Shown here one piece after another: positions 18,586 through 31,715 of a DNA stretch of 64,000 nt (the first letter of the stretch is position 1; every line of letters begins with the position of its first letter). The stretch is from Sterolibacterium sp. (GTDB lineage: Bacteria > Pseudomonadota > Gammaproteobacteria > Burkholderiales > Rhodocyclaceae). The DNA is taken from the NCBI GenBank assembly GCA_019105045.1, contig JAHRWT010000091.1, positions 1-64,000 of the forward strand. Reading direction: 5' to 3'. The notes beneath the pieces were generated by a model that saw only the letters and a program-made list of their open reading frames with translations, had not been told where the DNA came from and did no database searches. The position numbers and the translations under genes were made by a program.

Positions 18586-21486
18586 ATGTCAATCCGAAAC
18601 AATGCAGCCCTTTTTGGCACAGGATCCGCAGTGTATTCCTTGAGCAAACCCGCCCCCGGCTGGCTGATTCAACTGGTCGAAAGACTGCCCCATCACAAGA
18701 CCACGCCATCGGCGCTGATGTGGCGCTACGGCTTTGCCTTGTTCACCATCAGCCTGGCCTGGCTCAGCCGCGAGATCATCGGCGCACCCGATACGGGCCT
18801 GCCATTGCTGACCTTCTTCAGCGCCGCCGCCTTGACCCTGATCCTCACCGGCATCGGTCCGGGCATAGTGGCTGCCGTACTGGGCATGTTTCTGGGCGCC
18901 TGGCTGTACATGCCGCCGTATGGCATGTTCAGTTTCGAATTCCAGCACAGCAATGTCCTGTCGAATCTGGCTTTCGCCTTCAACTTCACCCTGCTGGCCC
19001 TGATCGTCAAAGCCGGACAGGTCTACCTCGACAAATACCTGGCCAATCGCCGGCTGCTCGCGGCCATCGTCGAAGGCAGCAAGGACGCCATCTATGTCAA
19101 GGATCTGCAGGGCTGCTACCGTTTCATGAACACGGCCGGCACACGCCATCTGGGCCAGTCCTTCGATATCGACAACATTCTTGGCCAGCAGGATCAGCAA
19201 CTGTTCTCGGCCTCGTTCCTCGACATGATCCGCGCCCAGGACCAACAGGTTCTGTCACAAAAACGCATCATCGAGTTTGAAACGCCGCTGGAAACTGCAC
19301 CGGGTGAAATTCACCACTTCCACAGTACCAAGGGACCGCTGCTCGATCACACAGGGCGCACCATCGGTCTGTTCGGTATTGAACACGACATCACCCACAT
19401 CAAGTCGATCGAAGCCGCTCTGCAGGAAAAACTCAGCATCCAGGAACAATTCTTCAACCTGGCCACCCTGGTGCCCGGTGTCATCTGCACCTATCGACGC
19501 AATGACAATGGCCAGCCCTGTTTCCCCTATGCCAGCGCCGGCCTGAAGGAAATCTTCGGCCTGAATCCTGAAGACGTGCGCGAGGACGGCAGCGCGGCCT
19601 TTGCCTTGATACACCCCGAAGATCAGCCACAGGTACTGGACACCACCAAACAGGCCATGCGCTATGGCAGCATGTGGAATACGGCCTTCCGGGTCAGCCA
19701 TCCGCGCAAGGGCGAGATCTGGGTCGAAGGCTTTCTGCGCCCCATCCTGCAAGCCGACGGCAGCACGCTATGGCATGGCTATCTGCAGGACATCACCGCC
19801 AGACGCCACGCTGAAGAACAGATGCGGCTGTCCGCCAGCGTCTTCGACACCATCGCCGAAGGCATCGTGGTCACCAGCCCGGACAACCGCATCCTGACCG
19901 TCAATGAAGCCTTCATTGAAATGACCGGCTACAGCCGTGCAGAGCTGCAAAACAAAGCGCCTCGCCTGATGCACGCCGAACGGCATGACGAGGCCTTTTT
20001 CAAGAACATGTACCAGGAATTGCTGGCCAATGACCGCTGGGAAGGCGAAGTCTGGAATCGCCGCAAGAACGGCGAGCTGTACCTGAAATGGCTGTCCGTG
20101 CGGGTCATCCGCGACAATGCAGAAAATGTCATCAGCTATATCAGCATTTTCCGTGACATCAGCCTGGTCAAGAACTCCGAGGACCGGGTGGAGTTCCTCG
20201 GCACCCACGACGAACTGACCCAACTGCCCAACCGTACCCTGCTCAACGACCGTCTGCAGCAAGCCGTCAGCCGGGCCGAACGCAGCAATCATCATCTGGC
20301 GCTGATGTTCGTCGATATCGACAACTTCAAGCTGGTCAACGAAACCTACGGCCATACCCTGGGCGACAATCTGCTGCTGCAAACAGCCGATCGCCTCAAG
20401 GACTGCGTGCGTGCTGAAGACACCGTGGCACGCATGGGCGGTGACGAATTCGTCATGATCCTCGAAGACTGCGACCGCGATGCCGTCATGCACACCGCCG
20501 AACGCATCCTGGCGCGACTCTCCGAAACCTACCGGGTAGGCGATCAGGAATGCTATACCGCAGCCAGCATCGGCATCAGCTTCTATCCTGACGATGCCAC
20601 TGAGCCCAGTGATTTGCTGCGCTACGCCGACAACGCCATGTATCGCGCCAAGGAAAAAGGCAAGAACAACATCCAGTTGTTCAGCGAAGACATGGCCGAA
20701 CGCTCACGCAAGCGCCTCAACATCGAACGCGACCTGCGCAACGCCTTCCAGAAGAATGAGTTCTTCCTCGAATATCAGCCCCAGGTCGACCTGTCCTCAC
20801 ACAGCCTGATTGGCGTCGAAGCGCTGATCCGCTGGCGGCATGGCGGCAAGACCGTGCCGCCGCTGGACTTCATCCCGATAGCCGAAGAATCCCGCCTGAT
20901 CATACTCATCGGCGAATGGGTGGTGCAGGAAGCCTGCCGCCAGATCAAGCAATGGGACCGCATCGGTCTGCCGCCGTTCACCGTCAGCGTCAATATCTCC
21001 GCCCGCCATTTTCTTGACCCGAACATGGTCCTGCGCCTGCACAGCATCGTTGAGCAGGCTGAGGTCGCCCCGCAGCGGCTGTGCCTGGAAGTCACCGAAG
21101 GCGCCATGGCCGACATCAACAACACCATGACCATGCTGCGCGAACTGGAAGAACTCGGTTATCGCACCAGCATCGATGATTTCGGTACCGGCTTCTCCTC
21201 ACTGTCGCATTTGAAGCGCTTCCCCCTGCACGAACTGAAAATCGACCGCAGCTTTGTGGACGGCATCATCGACGATCAGGACGACCGCGCCATCACCTCA
21301 ACCATCATTTCCATGGCCGGCAACCTGGAACTGAGCGTGGTTGCCGAAGGCATCGAAACCAGCGAGCAGCTCTCCGAACTGCATGAGATGGGCTGCCAGA
21401 TCGGCCAGGGTTATTACTTTTCCAAGCCGCTCACGGCAGACCGTTTCAACGAATGGCTGCGCAACAAGACCGCCGCAAATTCTTGA
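18586..21486 (+). CDS. Membrane PAS-GGDEF-EAL cyclic-di-GMP protein
   Basis: 966 residues. The N-terminus has several membrane helices (about 45-145: YGFALFTISLAWL, LTFFSAAALTLILTGIG, GIVAAVLGMFLGAWLYM, LAFAFNFTLLALIVKAG), resembling the DUF4118/MASE-like sensor region. Three PAS domains follow (about 155-275, 280-410, 415-530). GGDEF is intact (about 618-622), with an RxxD site (RAED) five residues upstream. EAL is intact: E745 in VEALIRW, DDFGTGFSSLSHLKRFP, KIDRSFVDGI, QGYYFSKP. Either enzymatic activity is possible. ATG 18586 lacks a clear Shine-Dalgarno but gives the full membrane region. Upstream lie a palindrome and a C13 tract. Confidence 0.9.
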   Translation: MSIRNNAALFGTGSAVYSLSKPAPGWLIQLVERLPHHKTTPSALMWRYGFALFTISLAWLSREIIGAPDTGLPLLTFFSAAALTLILTGIGPGIVAAVLGMFLGAWLYMPPYGMFSFEFQHSNVLSNLAFAFNFTLLALIVKAGQVYLDKYLANRRLLAAIVEGSKDAIYVKDLQGCYRFMNTAGTRHLGQSFDIDNILGQQDQQLFSASFLDMIRAQDQQVLSQKRIIEFETPLETAPGEIHHFHSTKGPLLDHTGRTIGLFGIEHDITHIKSIEAALQEKLSIQEQFFNLATLVPGVICTYRRNDNGQPCFPYASAGLKEIFGLNPEDVREDGSAAFALIHPEDQPQVLDTTKQAMRYGSMWNTAFRVSHPRKGEIWVEGFLRPILQADGSTLWHGYLQDITARRHAEEQMRLSASVFDTIAEGIVVTSPDNRILTVNEAFIEMTGYSRAELQNKAPRLMHAERHDEAFFKNMYQELLANDRWEGEVWNRRKNGELYLKWLSVRVIRDNAENVISYISIFRDISLVKNSEDRVEFLGTHDELTQLPNRTLLNDRLQQAVSRAERSNHHLALMFVDIDNFKLVNETYGHTLGDNLLLQTADRLKDCVRAEDTVARMGGDEFVMILEDCDRDAVMHTAERILARLSETYRVGDQECYTAASIGISFYPDDATEPSDLLRYADNAMYRAKEKGKNNIQLFSEDMAERSRKRLNIERDLRNAFQKNEFFLEYQPQVDLSSHSLIGVEALIRWRHGGKTVPPLDFIPIAEESRLIILIGEWVVQEACRQIKQWDRIGLPPFTVSVNISARHFLDPNMVLRLHSIVEQAEVAPQRLCLEVTEGAMADINNTMTMLRELEELGYRTSIDDFGTGFSSLSHLKRFPLHELKIDRSFVDGIIDDQDDRAITSTIISMAGNLELSVVAEGIETSEQLSELHEMGCQIGQGYYFSKPLTADRFNEWLRNKTAANS

Positions 21487-21591: not shown

Positions 21592-21957
21592 GTGAAAACC
21601 ATATTGCTGGTAGATGATTCAGCCACCATTCTCATGTCGATCTCCAGCATACTCGGCAAGGCAGGCTATGCCGTGGAAAAAGCCGGCAATGCCGCCGATG
21701 GCCTGAAAGTATTCGCTGCTGGCAAGAAAATCGACCTGCTCATCACCGACCTCAACATGCCCGGCATGAACGGCATCGACTTCATCAAGGAAGTGCGCAA
21801 GCTGCCGAATTACAAATTCATGCCCATACTTTTTCTCACCACCGAATCCCAGCAGGACAAGCGCATGGAGGCCAAGGCCGCCGGCGCCTCGGGCTGGCTG
21901 GTCAAGCCCGCCACCGCAGACGAACTGCTCAACACCATCAAACTGGTCATCCGCTGA
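21592..21957 (+). CDS. Single-domain CheY-like response regulator
   Basis: 121 residues from a GTG start with AGGAG seven bases upstream. The receiver fold is complete: VDDSATILMSI at the N-terminus, phospho-acceptor in DLLITDLNMPGMNGIDF, conserved Thr in ILFLTTES, and Lys in GWLVKPATADEL. There is no output domain. Similar stand-alone receivers near cheA are usually CheY homologues that take phosphate from CheA and bind the flagellar motor, a pilus motor or a phosphatase. The receptor-like gene with a CheZ-like motif follows 233 bp downstream. Confidence 0.9.
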   Translation: MKTILLVDDSATILMSISSILGKAGYAVEKAGNAADGLKVFAAGKKIDLLITDLNMPGMNGIDFIKEVRKLPNYKFMPILFLTTESQQDKRMEAKAAGASGWLVKPATADELLNTIKLVIR

Positions 21958-22029
21958 AGTGACAGGCCCGCAACCCGCCGGTTGCGGCAACCCACCCACA
22001 CACGTTGTTCCCGGCGTGCGATGCGCCCG

Positions 22030-22104
22030 CCACCGCCTCATCCACCGCCTCCACCGCCTCCACCGCCTTCACCGCCTTCACCGCCTCCACCGCCTCCACC
22101 GCCT
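22030..22104. repeat. 9-bp tandem repeat array (CCACCGCCT / TCACCGCCT)
   Basis: Seven contiguous 9-bp units cover 22042-22104 (three CCACCGCCT, two TCACCGCCT, two CCACCGCCT), plus one further copy at 22030 separated by three bases. The array fills much of the spacer between the CheY-like gene and the MCP-like gene. Because the unit is a multiple of three it gives artificial poly-proline or Val-Glu-Ala ORFs, which I do not regard as genes. Confidence 0.9.
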
Positions 22105-22190
22105 GCCAGTCTCGTGAATCTCCCTCACCAGGAAAATGACGAGATGCGCAATCTACGTGCAATTGCTTCTCGATCTTTCGTCAAATACCT

Positions 22191-23474
22191 ATGTCGAACA
22201 GAACACTGATCCGTAATCTGTTTGCGGTCTATCTGACCGTTGCCACGGGCTGCGCCATCGTCGTGTATTTTTTCAATGACTGGTTTCACAACGACCTTAC
22301 CGCGTTCTTCGGGATTTCCTCACCGCTGGCTGACGTGATCGGCAGCGTGCTGATGATTACCATGGCCTTTGCCGCCCAGCGCCTGATTGCCCATCTGTAT
22401 TACGGCGACCAGATGTTCGGCATGCAGCGCCAAATGGAAGACTGCAGGCTGCGCGAAAACAGCCGGACAGCCGCCATCAGCAAGATCAGCGGCGAACTGC
22501 GCCAGATCGGCGATTTCAACCAGGTCTTGCGCAGTCAGCTGGAACTGGTCGTCGGCGAAACCGAAAAAGCCGCCTATGACATTGCCGACCGCCTGCAAAG
22601 CATCGATGGCGTGGTCAACAACCTGAATACTTTTGTTTCGACCACGGCCAATGTCTCGCTCAGCCTGCAGGAAAATTCCGAAGTCTGCGTGGACAGCAAC
22701 AAGGACATGCTGGCCACCATCGACAACTACATCAAACAGCGGCTGGAAAGCACGGAATCCGAACGGCAGCGCATACAGCAGGTAGTTGAGGAAATCCAGT
22801 CTCTCGACAGCCTGGTACAACTGGTGCGCAACATCTCCGGCCAGACCAACCTGCTGGCGCTCAACGCGGCCATCGAAGCGGCCCGCGCCGGTGAAGTCGG
22901 CCGTGGCTTTGCCGTCGTGGCCGACGAAGTGCGCAAGCTATCCACCGCCACCGACGACGCGGTGTCGAAAATCAGCCTGGGCATCGACAGCGTCAAACAC
23001 TCCACTTACGCCCATTTCAAGGACAAGCTGTCCAACGAACAGCTGGATGCCGAAAGAAACACCTTGCTGGGCTTTGTCAGCCAGCTCGATCAGCTGGGCA
23101 CCAATTACCAGGAATTGAGAGATCACAGCGGCAACGCCATGGCGCAGATTTCCGCCAGCAGCCACCAGCTGACCGACATGTTCATGCAGGCGCTGGCCAG
23201 TGTGCAGTTTCAGGATACGGTGCGTCAGCAGATCGAGCAGATCATCACTGCCCTGAAACAATTCGATACGCACGCCGCCATGCTGGCCGAGCAGCTGGAA
23301 AGCAACCGCGACACCCCCGCTGATTTCAAACCGCTGACCGAGCAGCTGGAACAGATTTTCAGCCGCTACGTCATGAATTCCCAACGAAAATCACACCAGG
23401 CCGCGCTGGGTATGGATGACCAGGGCCATGCCCAGGAAAACGCCAACGAGCCGCCCAAGATCGAATTGTTCTGA
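22191..23474 (+). CDS. Membrane MCP-like protein with a CheZ-like FQDxxxQ motif
   Basis: 427 residues. Two membrane helices (about 8-28 and 45-68) with almost no periplasmic part are followed by a coiled-coil region and the highly conserved MCP tip ([37 protein letters not shown], about 213-250). There is no HAMP domain. Further on, F340-Q-D342-T-V-R-Q346 matches the catalytic helix pattern of the phosphatase CheZ (FQDLTGQ in E. coli). A flexible polar stretch then leads to a terminal KIELF. It may combine CheA/CheW contact with CheY-P dephosphorylation; that is inference. No clear Shine-Dalgarno supports ATG 22191. Confidence 0.8.
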
Positions 23475-23642
23475 ATTTCATCCTGCCGGCCGAAGCAAGG
23501 CAGGCGGCTGATCCCCCTCCCTGATCCGCCCCTGTGAAACCCAGGGTTTGACGAGGTTGCATGAAGTGACATGACGCGGACGACTCGCCTGGCACCACAC
23601 ACCAGGAGCCAGTTATCCGCTCAAATGAAAGGAGGTTGCGAC

Positions 23643-23966
23643 ATGAACACAGCGACAGGCAGCAACGGCGCTGAACGCATCTGCATCAACGAAGACATGA
23701 CGATCTACCATGCCGAAACGCTCAAGAAAGTGCTGATGCAGGCCATTCAGCGCAGCCAGCGGCTGGAACTGGACCTCTCCCAGGTCGCCGAGATCGACAC
23801 CTCGGGCATCCAGCTGCTGATGCTGGCCAAGCGTGAAAGCCAGACACGCGGCCAATCGCTCGACATCATTGCCCACAGCCCGGCGGTGCATGAACTGATC
23901 GACTTCTTCAACATTGCCGGCTACCTGGGTGACCCGCTGGTCATCCCGGCCCGTCCGGCCAACTGA
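23643..23966 (+). CDS. STAS-domain protein (anti-sigma antagonist-like)
   Basis: 107 residues from ATG 23643, which has a strong AAGGAGG upstream; the ORF track begins 24 codons earlier without support. The fold pattern is STAS: ITIYHAETLKK-like N-terminus, ELDLSQVAEIDTSGIQLLMLAKRES containing the conserved DTSG phospho-site region, and DIIAHSPAVHELIDFFNIAGYLG. STAS proteins switch partners by serine phosphorylation or bind membrane complexes. Directly upstream of cheA, this type is common in beta- and gammaproteobacterial chemosensory clusters, where its role is not settled. The gap to cheA is 16 bp. Confidence 0.85.
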   Translation: MNTATGSNGAERICINEDMTIYHAETLKKVLMQAIQRSQRLELDLSQVAEIDTSGIQLLMLAKRESQTRGQSLDIIAHSPAVHELIDFFNIAGYLGDPLVIPARPAN

Positions 23967-23982
23967 ACGAGGCAGCGTGGCC

Positions 23983-26244
23983 ATGGAAGAAATTCTCAGC
24001 GTCTTCATCCAGGAATCCCGCGAGCAGATTGCCGCCATGGAAGCCGAACTGCTCGGTCTGGAGCAAGGCAGCAATGCCAACGATGCGGAAGTGCTCAACG
24101 CCATTTTTCGTGCCGCCCACACCATCAAGGGAGGGGCTGGCGTGGTCGAGCTGGGCATGGTGGAAAGTTTCACCCACGTGCTTGAAAACACGCTCGACAA
24201 ACTGCGCAACAACGAAATCCAGGTCAATGATTCCTTGATCAGCATCCTGCTCAACTGCTGTGATCACATCGGCGCCCTGCTCGATCACGTCGAATCCAGC
24301 GCAAGTGATGAAGATGCCGCATTGCAACAGGATGGCGCGGCCATTGCCGAAAAACTGCGTGCCTGCGTCGCTGCACAGGGCGTCTGCGAAACCGGCGGCA
24401 GCGGGCTGGCAACCACGTCCCAGGCCGCCAGCCCCAGCGAGCACAACAGCGAACTGGAAAGCGAAGGCAGCGGCAAATCCATCAATGATTGCTGGCACAT
24501 CTCGGTGCGCTTCGGCGAAAACGTGCTGCGCAACGGCATGGACCCGGCCGCCATCCTGCGCTATCTGCTGACATTGGGCGAAATCGTGCATATCGCCACG
24601 CTGGTCGATGGCATGCCGGCGGCCGAAGACATGGATCCGGAATCCTGCTGGCTGGGCTGCGAAATCAGTTTCCGCAGTACGGCCGACAAGGCCGCCATCG
24701 AACGCGCCTTCAGTTTCGTCCAGGACGACTGCGAATTGCGCATCCTGCCGCCCGACAGCAAGGTGGCCGACTACCTGCAACTGATCAGTGAATTACCTGA
24801 AGAACCGATGCGTCTGGGCGAAATCCTGGTCAAGAGTGGCGCCCTGACCCACTCCGAGTTGATGAGCGGTCTGGCGCAGCAGCAGGCCCAGGCGACCAGC
24901 GAGGCATGCCGCGCAGAAACGCCCTCGCCACTTGGCGACATATTGATCGAGCAAAAAGTGGTGCAGCCGGAAATCGTCGAAGCGGCCGCCACCCGGCAAA
25001 AACAGGTCAACGACAAGAAAGCCGAGGAATCCCGCCTGATTCGCGTCCATGCCGGCAAGCTCGATCATCTCATCGATCTGGTTGGCGAACTGGTGATCGC
25101 CGGCGCCAGCGCCAATCTGCTGGCACAGAACAGCCACCTGCCGCAACTGGTCGAAGCCACCTCCCTGCTCAGTCGGCTGGTCGAGGACATCCGCGATTCC
25201 GCCCTGCAGCTGCGCATGGTGCAGATTGGTGAAACCTTCAACCGTTTCCACCGTGTGGTCCGTGATACCGCCAAGGAACTGGGCAAGGAAATCGAGCTGG
25301 TGATTCACGGCGCGGACACCGAGCTGGACAAGTCCGTGGTGGAAAAAATCGGTGACCCGCTGATGCACCTGGTGCGCAACGCCATGGATCACGGTCTGGA
25401 AACGCCCGAGGTGCGCATCGCCCGGGGCAAGCCGCCATGCGGCCGTCTGGAACTGAACGCCCATCATGACTCGGGCAATATCGTCATCGAGATCACCGAC
25501 GATGGTGCGGGCCTCAACCGTGCCAAGATCCTCGCCAAAGCCATCGAGCGCGGTCTGGTCAATCAAGGGCAGACGCTGAGCGATGAGGAAATCTACAACC
25601 TGATTTTTGAAGCGGGCTTTTCCACTGCCGACAAGGTAACCAATCTTTCCGGACGCGGCGTGGGCACGGATGTGGTCAAACGCAATATCCAGGCCCTGCG
25701 CGGCAGTGTCGAGGTCAGCTCCAGCGAAGGGGCCGGCTCGCGCTTCACCATTCGTCTGCCGCTGACCCTGGCCATCATCGACGGTTTCCTGGTGGAAGTC
25801 GGCAAGTCCTCCTTCGTCGTGCCGCTCGACATGGTGCTGGAGTGCCTGGAACTGTCCGAAGCCGACAAGCAGGCCAGCGCCACGCGCAGCTATCTCAACC
25901 TGCGCGGCGAAGCCTTGCCGTTCATCCGTCTGCGCGACCTGCTGGCGATCGAGGGCCAGCCACCACGGCGCGAAAACGTCGTCGTCGTGGCTTTTGGCAG
26001 CCAGAAAGCCGGACTGGTGGTCGATCAACTCCTGGGTGAATTCCAGACGGTGATCAAACCGTTGGGAGAGATTTTCCGCCACCTGCACGGCATCTCGGGA
26101 TCAACCATCCTGGGCGGCGGCGAAGTGGCCTTGATTCTTGACATACCGGCACTCGTACAGCAGGCGGCGAGCCGGGAAAACGAACAAACCGCCAGCGTCA
26201 CGCACTCAACCCGGCCGGGAATGGCCACAACGGAAATTCTGTGA
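23983..26244 (+). CDS. cheA: Chemotaxis histidine kinase CheA with MshEN-like repeats
   Basis: About 753 residues. An N-terminal Hpt domain has the phospho-acceptor H46 in RAAHTIKGGAG. A P2-like region follows (about 165-265). Then come two repeats of MshEN pattern, RLGEILVKSGALTHSEL at about 277-300 and PLGDILIEQKVVQPEIV at about 316-339. The core is complete: P3 dimerisation (about 345-430), HATPase (NAMDHGLE, DDGAGLN, GRGVGTDVVKRNI) and a CheW-like P5 domain at the end. It phosphorylates CheY and CheB in response to receptors. ATG 23983 and GTG 23977 are both possible starts; the tracked ORF is longer. Short gaps on both sides point to one operon. Confidence 0.94.
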   Translation: MEEILSVFIQESREQIAAMEAELLGLEQGSNANDAEVLNAIFRAAHTIKGGAGVVELGMVESFTHVLENTLDKLRNNEIQVNDSLISILLNCCDHIGALLDHVESSASDEDAALQQDGAAIAEKLRACVAAQGVCETGGSGLATTSQAASPSEHNSELESEGSGKSINDCWHISVRFGENVLRNGMDPAAILRYLLTLGEIVHIATLVDGMPAAEDMDPESCWLGCEISFRSTADKAAIERAFSFVQDDCELRILPPDSKVADYLQLISELPEEPMRLGEILVKSGALTHSELMSGLAQQQAQATSEACRAETPSPLGDILIEQKVVQPEIVEAAATRQKQVNDKKAEESRLIRVHAGKLDHLIDLVGELVIAGASANLLAQNSHLPQLVEATSLLSRLVEDIRDSALQLRMVQIGETFNRFHRVVRDTAKELGKEIELVIHGADTELDKSVVEKIGDPLMHLVRNAMDHGLETPEVRIARGKPPCGRLELNAHHDSGNIVIEITDDGAGLNRAKILAKAIERGLVNQGQTLSDEEIYNLIFEAGFSTADKVTNLSGRGVGTDVVKRNIQALRGSVEVSSSEGAGSRFTIRLPLTLAIIDGFLVEVGKSSFVVPLDMVLECLELSEADKQASATRSYLNLRGEALPFIRLRDLLAIEGQPPRRENVVVVAFGSQKAGLVVDQLLGEFQTVIKPLGEIFRHLHGISGSTILGGGEVALILDIPALVQQAASRENEQTASVTHSTRPGMATTEIL

Positions 26245-26256
26245 GGAGATAACAAT

Positions 26257-27882
26257 ATGTTCAAAAACCTGAGGATCGGTACGCGTCTAGGGATCGCCTT
26301 TGCCTTCGTGCTCGTCATGATGTCGATCATCGCCGCCCTTGGCATCGTGCGCATGAGCAGCCTCAATGACGACATCCACCTGATCGTCAACGACCGCGCG
26401 GTGAAGGTGAAGCAGGCCAACGACGTGATCGACGCGCTCAACATCATTGCCCGACGCATGCGCAACAGCCTGCTGGAGAAGGAAGCCGACAACATCCGAC
26501 GCGAGCTCGACGACATCCCCGCGCAGCGCAAGATCGTCGGCGACATTCTGGAGGTGCTGCACACTTCGATCACGCTCGACAAGGGCAAGGAAATCCTCAA
26601 GCAGATCGACGACAATCGGGCCATCTATATACCGCTGCAGAACAAGTTCATCGACCTGGTCAACGCCGGCAAGCGGGAGGAAGCGACCGAATTCATGCTA
26701 GGCACGATCAACCAGACGCAGGGCGCCTACCTGAAGAGCGTCAACGACCTTATCATCTTCCAGACCGAGCTGATGCAAGAGGCCGGCAGGAATGCCACCA
26801 ATGCCTATGAGCAGGGGCGCATGGTGATGTTCACCGTTTCGTTGATCGCGCTGATTGTCTCGATCCTGTTCGGTTTCTGGATCACGCGCAGCATCACCCG
26901 GCCGGTGGCCCAGGCCGCCCATGCCGCCAATGAGCTGGCCGAGGGCAACCTGATGGTCCGCGTGGAGTCCAGCAGCCGCGATGAAATCGGCCAGATGATG
27001 GCTTCCATCCAGAGCATGATCACCAAGCTGACGAGCATCATCAGTGAAGTCAATGTGTCTGCCGATACGCTCAACACGGCGGCTGGTCAGGTTTCCGTCA
27101 CCGCCCAGACATTGAGCGAAGGCGCCTCCGAGCAGGCCGCTTCAGTGGAAGAAACCACGGCTTCGGTTGAACAGATGACGGCCTCGATCACGCAGAACAC
27201 CGAAAATGCCACGGTCACCGACAGCATGGCGACCTCTGCCGCGAAGCAGGCTGAAGAAGGCGGTATTGCCGTCAAGGAAACGGTTGAAGCCATGAAGCAG
27301 ATCGCCGGCCGGATCGGCATCATCGACGACATTGCCTACCAGACCAATCTGCTGGCCCTGAATGCGGCCATCGAAGCGGCGCGGGCGGGTGAGCACGGCA
27401 AGGGCTTTGCCGTGGTCGCCGCTGAAGTGCGCAAGCTGGCCGAGCGTTCTCAAGTCGCCGCCCAGGAAATCGGCGAGCTGGCCGGTTCCTCGGTCACCAT
27501 GGCAGAAAAAGCCGGCAAACTGCTTGACGAAATGGTGCCCTCGATTCGCAAGACCTCCGATCTGGTGCAGGAAATCGCCGCAGCCTCGCAGGAGCAATCG
27601 TCCAGCGTCGGCCAGATCAACATGGCCATGGGGCAGCTCAATCAGGCCACCCAGCAAAATGCTTCCGCTTCGGAAGAACTGGCCGCCACCGCCGAAGAAA
27701 TGGGTGGCCAGGCCGGTCAACTACAGCAACTGATGGCCTTTTTCCGGCTGGAGGACACTGCCCAGACGGCCAAGCAGCGTCCGCACGCCGCCGCAGCGAC
27801 CGACAAAGCCGGCCAGCGGACACAGGCCAAAACCAAAGCCGCTGCCGCAACCAACAGCGAGCATGGTTTTGAACGCTTCTGA
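26257..27882 (+). CDS. Methyl-accepting chemotaxis protein with four-helix-bundle sensor
   Basis: 541 residues. TM1 (about 11-32) and TM2 (about 188-208) enclose a roughly 150-residue all-helical periplasmic domain of the 4HB_MCP type. A HAMP domain follows (about 208-262), then a full signalling domain with the tip [44 protein letters not shown]. An Ala/Lys/Gln-rich tail ends in GFERF, which fits the pattern of CheR/CheB tethering pentapeptides (x-aromatic-x-x-aromatic). The start is secure, with GAGGAGAT upstream. It lies 12 bp after cheA and 11 bp before cheW. Confidence 0.94.
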
Positions 27883-27893
27883 ACGGGGGTGTC

Positions 27894-28460
27894 ATGGTAA
27901 CCACAACCCACAATCCAGGCGCCGGCCTGCCTGCGACGAATCAGGCGGCCAAACTGCTGGCCTCGGCCGGTGAAGCCAATCAATACCTGACTTTCAATCT
28001 GGGCGGCGAGATGTACGCCCTGGGCATACTCAACATCAAGGAGATCATTGAATTCGGCCAGCTCACCGAAGTTCCGATGATGCCCAGCTTCATGCGCGGC
28101 GTCATCAACCTGCGTGGCGCCGTGGTGCCGGTGATCGACCTGGCCGCCCGCTTCAGCAACACGCCTTCGACCATACAGCGGCGCACCTGCATCGTCATCG
28201 TCGAGATCCCGCAGGATGACGGCCATCAGGACATCGGCATCCTGGTTGACGCGGTTTCCGAAGTACTGGAAATTCCCGCCAGCGAGATCGAACCGGCCCC
28301 CACCTTCGGGGCCAGGATACGCAGCGACTTCATCGCCGGCATGGGCAAGATCGATGGCCGTTTCGTCATCATCCTCGAAATTCGCCGCGTACTCTCCATC
28401 GACGATCTGGCTTCGCTGGCCGACATTGGCCAGACCCGGGCCAGCGAGCACAACGACTGA
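27894..28460 (+). CDS. cheW: Chemotaxis coupling protein CheW
   Basis: 188 residues: a 30-residue variable N-terminus, then the CheW beta-barrel (QYLTFNLGGEMYALGILNIKEIIEFGQLTEVPMMPSFMRGVINLRGAVVPVIDLAARF). It bridges CheA and receptors in the array. Somewhat longer than E. coli CheW because of both tails. It follows the MCP by 11 bp and is followed by a strong terminator, so it likely ends the STAS-cheA-mcp-cheW transcript. Confidence 0.95.
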   Translation: MVTTTHNPGAGLPATNQAAKLLASAGEANQYLTFNLGGEMYALGILNIKEIIEFGQLTEVPMMPSFMRGVINLRGAVVPVIDLAARFSNTPSTIQRRTCIVIVEIPQDDGHQDIGILVDAVSEVLEIPASEIEPAPTFGARIRSDFIAGMGKIDGRFVIILEIRRVLSIDDLASLADIGQTRASEHND

Positions 28461-28501
28461 CTGCCGTTGCCGGATCCTGCCGCGCATTTGCAGCCCATCC
28501 C

Positions 28502-28547
28502 CAACCCCGGACGCACAGCACTCTCCTGTGCGCCCGGGGTTGTTTGC
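28502..28547 (+). terminator. Strong intrinsic terminator after cheW
   Basis: A 17-bp stem with one mismatch (CAACCCCGGACGCACAG against CTGTGCGCCCGGGGTTG), a 7-nt loop and a short TTTGCTT tail. It separates the cheA-cheW transcript from cheR-cheD-cheB-cheD. Confidence 0.8.
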
Positions 28548-28671
28548 TTACCCTCGCGGTGATCCGTCAAGTATCATTCCGTAAACCTTCCGGCAGCGTT
28601 CTTCTTTGCTTGCACACCCTGCCTTGTCGGGTGCCACGCCGTCCTCCTGATGGACCCGAAACACCAAGATC

Positions 28672-29484
28672 ATGATGACTCCAACCAAAATCACGCCAGC
28701 CGAGTTTGCGCAGTTTCAGGCGCTGATCTACAAGATTGCCGGCATCAACCTTTCAGAAGCCAAACAGGTGCTGCTGGTGGGCCGCCTCGGCCGCCGACTG
28801 AAACATCATGGCCTGACGAGCTACGGTGAATATTACAAGCTGGTGAATTCGCCACAGCACGCCGATGAGCTGCAGCTGATGGTGGATCTGCTGACCACCA
28901 ACGAAACCTATTTCTTCCGCGAACCCAAGCATTTCGAATATTTCAGCCAGCACATCCTGCCCAAGCGGGCGGTCGGGCGCTCATTCGATGTCTGGAGCGC
29001 AGCCAGTTCGACCGGTGAGGAAATCTACACCATCGCCATGGTGCTGGCCGACACCCTGGGAATCAAGGGACAATGGACGGTCACCGGCTCGGACATCAGC
29101 CAGTCCGTGCTGGCCACCGCCCGCCGTGGCCAGTATCAACTGGATCGAACCCGTGGCCTGCCGCCCGAGTATCTGCGCAAATACTGTCTCAAAGGCGTGG
29201 GCGAAAACGAAGGCAGTTTTCTCATCATGCCTGAACTGCGCCAGCACACGCGCTTTCTGCAAGTCAATCTGAACAAGCCTTTTCCCAACCTGGGCAAGTT
29301 CCATGTGATCTTCCTGCGCAATGTCATGATCTACTTTGACAACAACACCAAGCGTCAGGTGGTCGAGCGACTGGTTCAGCAGTTGCATCCCGGCGGCCAT
29401 CTGATCATCGGCCATTCGGAAAGCCTCAACGGCATCACCGACTGCGTCAAGGCCATCAAGCCCACCATTTATCAGGCGACCTGA
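28672..29484 (+). CDS. cheR: Chemotaxis protein methyltransferase CheR
   Basis: 270 residues. The N-terminal helical domain (FQALIYKIAGINLSEAKQVLLVGRLGRRL) precedes a SAM-dependent methyltransferase core (FDVWSAASSTGEEIYTIAMVL, then VIFLRNVMIYFD and GGHLIIGHSESL). The beta-subdomain KYCLKGVGENEGSF resembles the pentapeptide-binding RYFMRGTG region of E. coli CheR. It methylates glutamates on receptors. Two adjacent ATG codons occur at 28672 and 28675; the first is used. First gene of cheR-cheD-cheB-cheD. Confidence 0.95.
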   Translation: MMTPTKITPAEFAQFQALIYKIAGINLSEAKQVLLVGRLGRRLKHHGLTSYGEYYKLVNSPQHADELQLMVDLLTTNETYFFREPKHFEYFSQHILPKRAVGRSFDVWSAASSTGEEIYTIAMVLADTLGIKGQWTVTGSDISQSVLATARRGQYQLDRTRGLPPEYLRKYCLKGVGENEGSFLIMPELRQHTRFLQVNLNKPFPNLGKFHVIFLRNVMIYFDNNTKRQVVERLVQQLHPGGHLIIGHSESLNGITDCVKAIKPTIYQAT

Positions 29485-29505
29485 ACCTGCACGGATGACG
29501 GACTC

Positions 29506-30039
29506 ATGACAACTCATCGGGTTGCCACAGCTGCGCCACACATCGTACTTGCGCCAGGCGAATTCCACTTCGCTGCCGCACCCGGACTGATCAGCACGCT
29601 GCTGGGCTCCTGTGTCGCGATCACGCTCTGGCATCCATTGCGCCGCCTGGGCGGCATGTGCCATATCCTGCTGCCCGGCCGGCTGCCTCACGCTGGCGCA
29701 GCAGCCGCCTCGCCATCACAACCGATGACTCTGGCCGGGCGCTATGCTGAAGAAGCGTTCATGCTGTTCGATACGGCCATCGCCCGATATGGCTGCCAGG
29801 CCCATGAGTATCAGGCCAGGCTGTTCGGCGGTGGCAACATGTTTCCCGGCATGAAAACCTTCAACCCGATCGGCGAGCAGAATATCGAAGCCGCCCACCG
29901 CTTCATCACCCAGCGCGGTATGCCCCTGCTCGAAGAGCACACCGGCGGCACGGGCCGTCGCAAACTGTTGTTTGATCTGGAAAGCGGCGCGGTCAGGCTG
30001 CAATATATTGATCCCCATGCCGTACAGGAGCAGAAATGA
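29506..30039 (+). CDS. cheD: Chemoreceptor glutamine deamidase CheD, copy 1
   Basis: 177 residues. The catalytic Cys C36 in [13 protein letters not shown] and His H53 in [10 protein letters not shown] are 17 residues apart, as in characterised CheD. Further family blocks are [24 protein letters not shown] and [13 protein letters not shown]. It deamidates receptor glutamines and in some species partners with CheC-type phosphatases. The gene overlaps cheB by 4 bp (ATGA). A second, divergent cheD follows cheB. Confidence 0.92.
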
Positions 30040-31112
30040 GCAAGATCCGTGTGATGATTGTCGATGACTCCGCCGTGGTGCGACAGACCATCCGCGAAAA
30101 TCTCGAACGCGAGCCGGATATCGAAGTCATCGGCGCGGCAGCGGATCCGCTGTTTGCACTCGACAAGATGAAGAACGACTGGCCGGATGTCATTACGCTG
30201 GACATCGAAATGCCGCGCATGGATGGCCTGACCTTTCTGCGCAAGATCATGGCCGAACATCCAACGCCGGTCATCATCTGCTCCTCGCTGGCTGAAAAAG
30301 GCGCGGAAACCACCATGGAGGCATTGGCCGCCGGCGCCGTCAGCGTCATCACCAAACCCAAGATCGGCGTCAAACAGTTTCTTCACGATGCCTCGAACGA
30401 TCTGGTCAGCGCCGTGCGCGCCGCTGCGCACAGCAACAAGCGAGCGCTGGGGCGCGCTCTGCACAGTGCAATGACGCCGCCGCCCAAGCTCACCGCCGAT
30501 GCCATGCTCGCTGCACAGGCGGCCTCATCGACAGCCATGGCCAAGACCACCGAGGGCATCGTCGCCATCGGCACCTCGACGGGTGGCACGCAGGCACTGG
30601 AGGTCGTTCTGAAAGCGCTGCCCGCCGTCTGCCCGGGCATCGTCATCGTCCAACACATGCCGGAAAAATTCACCGGCATGTTCGCCGCCCGCCTCGATTC
30701 GATCTGCCAGCTGGAAGTGCGCGAAGCCCAGAACGGTGACCGGGTGATCCCCGGCCGCGCGCTGATCGCTCCCGGCGGCCGCCACATGATGCTGCGCCGC
30801 AGCGGCGCCCAGTACATCGTTGAAGTGGCCGACGGACCACTGGTCAATCGCCACAAGCCCTCCGTCGATGTGCTGTTTCGCTCGGTGGCGCAAACGGCGG
30901 GACGCAATGCGCTGGGCATCATCATGACCGGCATGGGCGATGATGGCGCGCGCGGCCTCAACGAAATGCACCAGGCCGGCGCACGTACCGTTGCCCAGGA
31001 TGAAGCCAGCTGCGTGGTTTATGGTATGCCCAAGGAAGCCGTGCGGCTGGGCGGCGTCGACAAGAGCGTGCCACTCGACCTGATCGCCCGCGAGATCATG
31101 GCTTTCAAATAA
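30036..31112 (+). CDS. cheB: Chemotaxis methylesterase/deamidase CheB
   Basis: 358 residues. Receiver domain with D56 in [14 protein letters not shown] and a linker with HSNKRALG. The C-terminal esterase domain has the triad S181 (GTSTGGTQ), H207 (VQHMPEKF) and Asp at about 303 ([12 protein letters not shown]). Phosphorylated by CheA, it removes methyl groups from receptors and provides adaptation. It sits between two cheD genes, overlapping the first by 4 bp and preceding the second by 18 bp. Confidence 0.96.
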
Positions 31113-31130
31113 ATCACTTCAGGCAGCACC

Positions 31131-31715
31131 ATGAATACCCGCAAGGAACCCACCAGTCAGGAACTTGAACGTACCGCACAAACGATCCATCCGGGTGAAT
31201 GGCGGGTCGATCAACTGCGGCCAATCGCCACCCTGCTGGGTTCCTGCATCGCTGTCTGTCTGTACGATCCCAAGCTGAAGTTTGGCGGCATGAACCACTT
31301 CCTGCTGCCCAACAGCGACCCGAACAAGGCACAGGATGACCTGTTGCGCGGCGACTATTCCATGGAAGTCCTGGTCAATGCCATGATGGCCAAGGGCGCA
31401 CAGAAAAAACGATTGCGGGCCAAGGTATTTGGCGGCGGCAATCCGGTATCGGCCATCAGCCTGTCGATTGGCGAGCGCAATGCGCAATTCGCCAGCGAAT
31501 GGCTGGCCCGCGAAGGCATCGCAGTGGATGCCAGCGATGTCGGCGGCCCCTGGTCGCGCAAGCTGCTGTTCGATCCCCACAGCGGTATCGCCTGGTGCAA
31601 ACGCATCCTCGGCCACCTGGCCATTTCAGGCGATGTGGCGCGCAAGGAAGCCGAATACGCCCGCAGTCTGAACAAGCCGGCACCAAGCGCAGAAAAGAAG
31701 ATCGAACTGTTCTGA
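31131..31715 (+). CDS. cheD: Chemoreceptor glutamine deamidase CheD, copy 2, with a KIELF tail
   Basis: 194 residues. Catalytic C39 in ATLLGSCIAVCLYD and H56 in FGGMNHFLLP are 17 residues apart. Other CheD blocks are AKVFGGGNPV, IGERNAQFASEWL and RKLLFDPHSGIAW. This copy is of the longer betaproteobacterial type, with 'GMNHF' and a C-terminal linker ending KKIELF, identical in its last five residues to the MCP-like protein at 22191-23474. Two CheD in one operon may act on different receptors or bind different partners. Confidence 0.93.
   Translation: MNTRKEPTSQELERTAQTIHPGEWRVDQLRPIATLLGSCIAVCLYDPKLKFGGMNHFLLPNSDPNKAQDDLLRGDYSMEVLVNAMMAKGAQKKRLRAKVFGGGNPVSAISLSIGERNAQFASEWLAREGIAVDASDVGGPWSRKLLFDPHSGIAWCKRILGHLAISGDVARKEAEYARSLNKPAPSAEKKIELF

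Follow-up and report, generated by a model that had tools for sequence, protein, structure and literature searches.

An [IV]ELF ending on unrelated chemotaxis proteins of Sterolibacterium sp. and its relatives as a probable docking peptide

One ending on two folds

Why should two unrelated proteins from a single chemosensory cluster end in the same five residues? The question is raised by 64,000 nucleotides from a contig of Sterolibacterium sp. (the window, meaning that whole stretch), in which CheD2, the second of two CheD proteins, and an MCP-like protein, MCPz, both carry KIELF directly before the stop codon. A preliminary description had proposed that this peptide docks both proteins to one common partner. 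Its observations hold up on translation: the two endings are exact, coordinates and stop codons included, and the folds are indeed unrelated, CheD2 matching Pfam CheD (PF03975) at 92 bits against a cut-off of 25 and MCPz matching MCPsignal (PF00015) at 88 bits against a cut-off of 34.6. CheD2 ends in NKPAPSAEKKIELF and then the stop, and it retains the GSC cysteine and the histidine when aligned to T. maritima CheD (2f9z_C). MCPz consists of a hydrophobic N-terminus, an MCP hairpin, a CheZ-like helix, a linker and the tail (alignment A1). The features concerned are as follows.

21592..21957, + strand: CheY, directly upstream of MCPz, candidate partner (Pfam Response_reg, 8.9e-27)
22191..23474, + strand: MCPz, MCP-like protein, McpA-like candidate (Pfam MCPsignal, 7.4e-25; alignment A1)
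22848..22907, + strand: hairpin tip of MCPz, near invariant (invariant columns of alignment A1)
23205..23231, + strand: QFQDTVRQQ of MCPz, CheZ-type FQ-DxxxQ motif, D342 and Q346 (alignment A1)
23457..23471, + strand: KIELF C-terminal tail of MCPz (translation; orthologue conservation)
26257..27882, + strand: second MCP of the cluster, ending GFERF, for contrast (Pfam MCPsignal, HAMP, 4HB)
29506..30039, + strand: CheD1, without the tail, for contrast (Pfam CheD, 4.3e-21)
31131..31715, + strand: CheD2, receptor glutamine deamidase family, with C-terminal tail (Pfam CheD, 2.9e-26)
31656..31697, + strand: linker between CheD domain and tail of CheD2, about ARSLNKPAPSAEK (translation; varies among orthologues)
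31698..31712, + strand: KIELF C-terminal tail of CheD2 (translation; orthologue conservation)

The genes lie in the order CheY, MCPz, STAS, CheA, MCP, CheW, CheR, CheD1, CheB, CheD2, with no CheC seen among them. CheD1 ends PHAVQEQK and so lacks KIELF, as had been said of it. The second MCP ends in GFERF, the consensus form of the classical CheR-tether pentapeptide, and two different C-terminal docking peptides thus occur within one cluster. The gene order from 21592 to 31715 recalls F7 chemosensory clusters (mcpA-like, STAS, pentapeptide MCP), yet two CheDs are present, and CheD2 is nearer to flagellar-type CheD than to CheD1. A PAS-GGDEF-EAL protein (18586-21486) is encoded directly 5' of the cluster.

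A search of the 2.36-Mb genome for DNA encoding [ILVF]-E-[LF]-F-stop gave five places. CheD2 and MCPz were the sole genuine [IV]ELF-stop genes found, though the genome is ~85% complete and further ones may be missing; one place beyond the two tails reads IEFF. From the amino-acid composition of the window, ~0.06 genes ending [IV]ELF are expected per 2300 genes, and the earlier judgement that coincidence is unlikely is upheld by these figures.

Conservation and spread of the tail

In a search of 100 relatives, all 26 MCPz orthologues (26/26, the window included) end in [IV]ELF, as do 25/25 intact copies of CheD2. The linker varies among the CheD2 orthologues, and in MCPz it is hypervariable, to the point that linkers cannot be aligned across orthologues (alignment A1). 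The tail consensus is [KDG]-[IV]-[ED]-L-F, with D[IV]TFF as variants. A short ending that stays invariant behind a flexible linker is what characterises a docking peptide, and on this comparison of sequences KIELF is highly likely to be a copy of one, conserved at the C-terminus. All 20 flagellar-type CheDs that were compared (about 33-41% identical to CheD2) have [IV][ED][LI]F among their final five residues. The motif stands at the very end in 11/20 and is followed by one extra residue in 9/20, so a free terminal phenylalanine is not required there.

The two carriers also travel together. Among 61 genomes of the family, 22 have both the CheD2 and the MCPz clade, 4 and 3 have one alone, and 32 have neither; the p-value of 1e-9 is nominal, since the family genomes are related. 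In nearly all loci, and in two separate clades, cheY is the direct neighbour of the MCPz gene. It lies upstream in the clade of the window, where the two genes often overlap or are separated by 2-13 bases, and downstream in the other clade, which is found beside flagellar cheY-cheA genes.

Carriers were also sought by homology-free pattern searches in 26 relatives and in 185 genomes sampled evenly across the class. In the relatives, [IV]ELF frames belong to CheD, several MCP-like clades, GGDEF proteins, proteins of 190-200 residues with an FQFYD motif, and one REC protein, the clear exceptions being a Rieske-like protein and a regulator ending VEFF. Class-wide, 30 of the 38 places matching [DG][IV]ELF-stop were read, and 17 of these had a credible frame: five MCP-like genes, five FQFYD, three GGDEF, three CheD and one transporter. 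A CheA-type dimerisation domain is present in 15/15 genomes with chemosensory carriers versus 115/185 overall (Fisher 6e-4), and CheZ in 14/15 versus 76/185 (Fisher 2e-5). Neither of the two outcomes that the preliminary description had named as refuting is therefore borne out: the tail is conserved in the orthologues of both genes, and across the class it shows strong enrichment in proteins of chemosensory or c-di-GMP function.

The FQFYD family (L094, L101, L234, L248, L255, L087) comprises proteins of ~190 residues with FQF[YF]DxxxQ and an [DE]IELF tail. Neither Pfam nor NCBIfam gives a name to the three members that were scanned, and a profile search of the PDB gave nothing credible. By hhalign the family aligns to MCPz over 155 columns, the tail included, and is related to the C-terminal half of MCPz; the same method finds no relation to CheZ. 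The GGDEF carriers (L074, L090, L226, L245, L252) form one diguanylate cyclase family whose N-terminus has no assigned domain, and the tail on this family suggests a tie between c-di-GMP synthesis and chemotaxis. Neighbourhoods of the GGDEF and FQFYD carriers contain no constant chemotaxis partner; a CheV-like gene is found close to one of the FQFYD genes. The REC-domain protein (L099, 891-2048) ends GVVELF and has a middle part without an assigned domain.

A CheZ-like motif and the partner of the tail

The descending helix of MCPz carries a further conserved element, QFQD-x-x-RQQ, invariant apart from its variable positions (alignment A1). CheZ proteins share the phosphatase motif DxxxQ, with AxxFQ just ahead of it (PMC7750401). 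The NCBIfam CheZ model NF041271 matches residues 314-361 of MCPz (E 5.9e-4) at 19.4 bits against a cut-off of 350. Pfam CheZ (PF04344) does not match MCPz itself and matches two orthologues weakly, below its cut-off (E 6e-4 and 9e-4), and hhalign sets FQDxTxQ of MCPz on FQDLTGQ of CheZ with a probability of only 12 (E 0.0025). Low as these scores are, the CheZ models match MCPz exactly at QFxDxxxQ, and the AlphaFold2 model is helical there. We also tallied motif and tail over 114 MCPs from named genomes, which were not chosen for the tail and in which TFF, DLF, DFF and TFL were allowed as tail variants. QFxDxxxQ and the tail occur together in 10/10 MCPs, and the other 104 have neither; the p-value of 1.5e-14 is nominal, because some of the MCPs were found through their similarity to MCPz and some come from related species. 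The complete lack of mismatches is striking. In the same genomes the ending of genuine CheZ is QVDDLLESLGF and not ELF. Two genomes (G009 and G168) have chemosensory genes and MCPz-type proteins and no detected CheZ, and in these an MCPz-type protein is a possible natural replacement for CheZ.

These observations make it reasonably probable, as far as sequence can tell, that MCPz combines CheZ-like CheY-P phosphatase chemistry with a receptor scaffold. The preliminary description had likened the tail to that of CheZ, and this analogy is strengthened by the motif and by the adjacent cheY. The [I/V]-E-L-F ending found on unrelated chemotaxis proteins very probably plugs all of them into one partner, a single surface on one kind of molecule that would capture the carriers through their flexible linkers. 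In MCPz, as in CheZ, a helical bundle bearing FQ-DxxxQ, here on a receptor hairpin, would be followed by a linker and a docking peptide; the tail would capture CheY-P and MCPz would dephosphorylate it. Bearing this peptide too, CheD would be recruited to the partner that MCPz binds. CheY-P controls CheD of B. subtilis by way of CheC, whose affinity for CheD it raises about seven-fold (PMC3513319). By analogy, a CheY-binding tail on CheD could give control by CheY-P without CheC, a CheC-free form of the B. subtilis feedback from CheY-P to CheD.

For the identity of the partner, a CheY-type receiver is a candidate that we would put short of probable. Two natural read-through fusions were modelled with AlphaFold2 and read by confidence along the chain. 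In a fusion of CheY to MCPz (L018, 49 sequences) confidence is high for CheY and for the helices but drops to pLDDT 60 and 50 in the last two blocks, and the tail does not dock; a fusion of the tail of MCPz2 with CheY (L103) likewise shows no docking, its tail having a pLDDT of about 35. Because CheY was modelled in its unphosphorylated form, short motifs are difficult targets, the alignments had little depth and the tail end in L103 is not free, the models only weaken the case for CheY, and they carry no information on other partners. Foldseek matches listed for the L018 model (50) are mostly CheY or other receiver domains and chemoreceptor folds. A counterpoint is that the GGDEF and REC carriers are not obviously in need of CheY. 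Docking to one common partner, as originally proposed, thus stands as the best inference, now drawn from many more than two proteins, and its CheY form found no counterpart in the fusion models. Taken as a whole, a shared docking tail, a CheZ-like phosphatase in MCPz and a CheY-type receiver as partner make up an explanation that falls just a little below an even chance. More tentative again is its extension to a chemotaxis-wide docking code in Gammaproteobacteria (GTDB sense), in which one receiver or hub surface would recruit a CheZ-like phosphatase of receptor build, along with CheD, a diguanylate cyclase and a small helical protein.

The main alternative to CheY docking is that the tail binds a component of the flagellar (F6) array or of the pole (CheA, CheW, CheV, or of the ParP/HubP type) and would concentrate CheD, MCPz, the diguanylate cyclase and the small helical protein there. 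P. aeruginosa McpA has been reported to cluster with the F6 system (PMC7534058; PMC7184735), CheZ, an F6 marker, is present in 14/15 of the class genomes with verified carriers, and activities as varied as those of the GGDEF and REC carriers are easier to reconcile with one shared location than with one shared substrate. We nevertheless consider such targeting rather unlikely: it leaves unexplained both the strict tie between DxxxQ and the tail in MCPs and the adjacency of cheY, and a conserved hairpin tip of the array type is present in MCPz already. Were the tail to bind an array or polar hub, a targeting signal could be read from genome sequence.

Short hydrophobic C-termini can act as degrons, and a signal for proteolysis or processing, or binding to some other partner, is to be considered alongside the readings above. 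Degrons would span the proteome, whereas the tail is nearly confined to chemosensory and c-di-GMP proteins of CheA-positive genomes, and we judge this possibility improbable.

The preliminary description had also likened KIELF to the receptor pentapeptides, and a variant of these (NWETF, GWEEF) would recruit the methylation enzymes CheR or CheB. Position, length, the central glutamate and the final phenylalanine are alike, and tails of the form E-[W/V]-E-X-F in V. cholerae system III have been suggested to bind CheR3 (PMC11940527). Position 2 is, however, isoleucine or valine in all carriers tallied and never aromatic, so the tail departs from the consensus -x-[HFYW]-x(2)-[HFYW] (PMC7184735), and McpA of P. 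aeruginosa, with valine at this position, is reported to bind none of four CheR homologues (0/4; PMC7184735). This departure from the consensus and the reported behaviour of McpA remove the CheR tether as the most likely reading, and with it that analogy. The other MCP of the cluster already has a consensus tether in GFERF, and neither the GGDEF nor the CheD carriers are substrates of methylation; a tethering role is accordingly a decidedly slim prospect.

Chance, to which an original sample of two from one cluster lent some colour, is ruled out as a coincidence by the genome search, the conservation in orthologues and the expectation of 0.06 per genome, and together with inheritance of a common C-terminal domain it has next to no probability, as the carrier folds are unrelated, the tails align and the linkers do not, and the tail is conserved class-wide in at least four families. 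The beta-clamp-binding motif, QL[SD]LF, has similar letters. It was rejected as a reading of the tail: position 1 is K, D, G or others, not Q, and the carriers are chemosensory.

If the tail does bind CheY-P, this would explain how CheD could be tied to pathway output in Proteobacteria without CheC, and why McpA-like 'receptors' are encoded beside cheY yet are dispensable for the F7 array. A docking code, if true, would imply CheC-free feedback from CheY-P to CheD and the wiring of c-di-GMP synthesis into the chemotaxis pathway. One peptide would in either case bear on several uncharacterised families together.

Relation to known systems

The closest counterparts of MCPz in the literature are the McpA-like receptors of F7 systems (24H; CttP/PA0180, VCA1088), whose C-terminus is highly conserved and of unclear role (PMC7184735). 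MCPz is likewise receptor-like with a membrane region, and its gene is likewise a neighbour of an F7-type cluster that includes cheY and an anti-sigma antagonist (PMC7184735, PMC7534058). In the McpA-like receptors, valine takes the place of the aromatic residue of the CheR tether, and the C-terminus of MCPz is similarly aliphatic at position 2. Named Pseudomonas homologues of MCPz end SDITFF or DDVTFF, and the order MCPz-CheY-STAS recurs in two Pseudomonas species; these tails and this gene order suggest that MCPz is a candidate member of the McpA-like group. The published accounts consulted name no partner for the McpA tail. The literature searched, which excluded subscription papers, contains no description of DxxxQ in McpA-like proteins or of the same tail on CheD, GGDEF and small proteins. 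With the carriers described here, the conserved McpA-like C-terminus (PMC7184735) becomes a testable rule that spans CheD, receptor-like proteins with a CheZ motif, one diguanylate cyclase family and a small family.

CheZ and MCPz are alike in having a bundle-forming helical hairpin, FQ-DxxxQ, a flexible linker, a C-terminal peptide ending in phenylalanine and a gene beside cheY. They differ in that MCPz has a receptor hairpin and a hydrophobic N-terminus rather than the N-terminus of CheZ, in that the CheY-binding helix of CheZ ends LLxSLGF and MCPz ends [IV]ELF, and in the CheZ-family scores of MCPz, which are under the cut-off. The CheR-tether pentapeptides (NWETF, GWEEF) resemble the tail as short, conserved, phenylalanine-ending peptides on a flexible linker; unlike them, the tail has no aromatic residue at position 2 and is also found on proteins that are not receptors. 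In the CheC-CheD-CheY-P system of B. subtilis, the activity of CheD is tied to CheY-P and to a CheY phosphatase (PMC3513319), whereas here the proposed link, by analogy, would be the tail on CheD itself.
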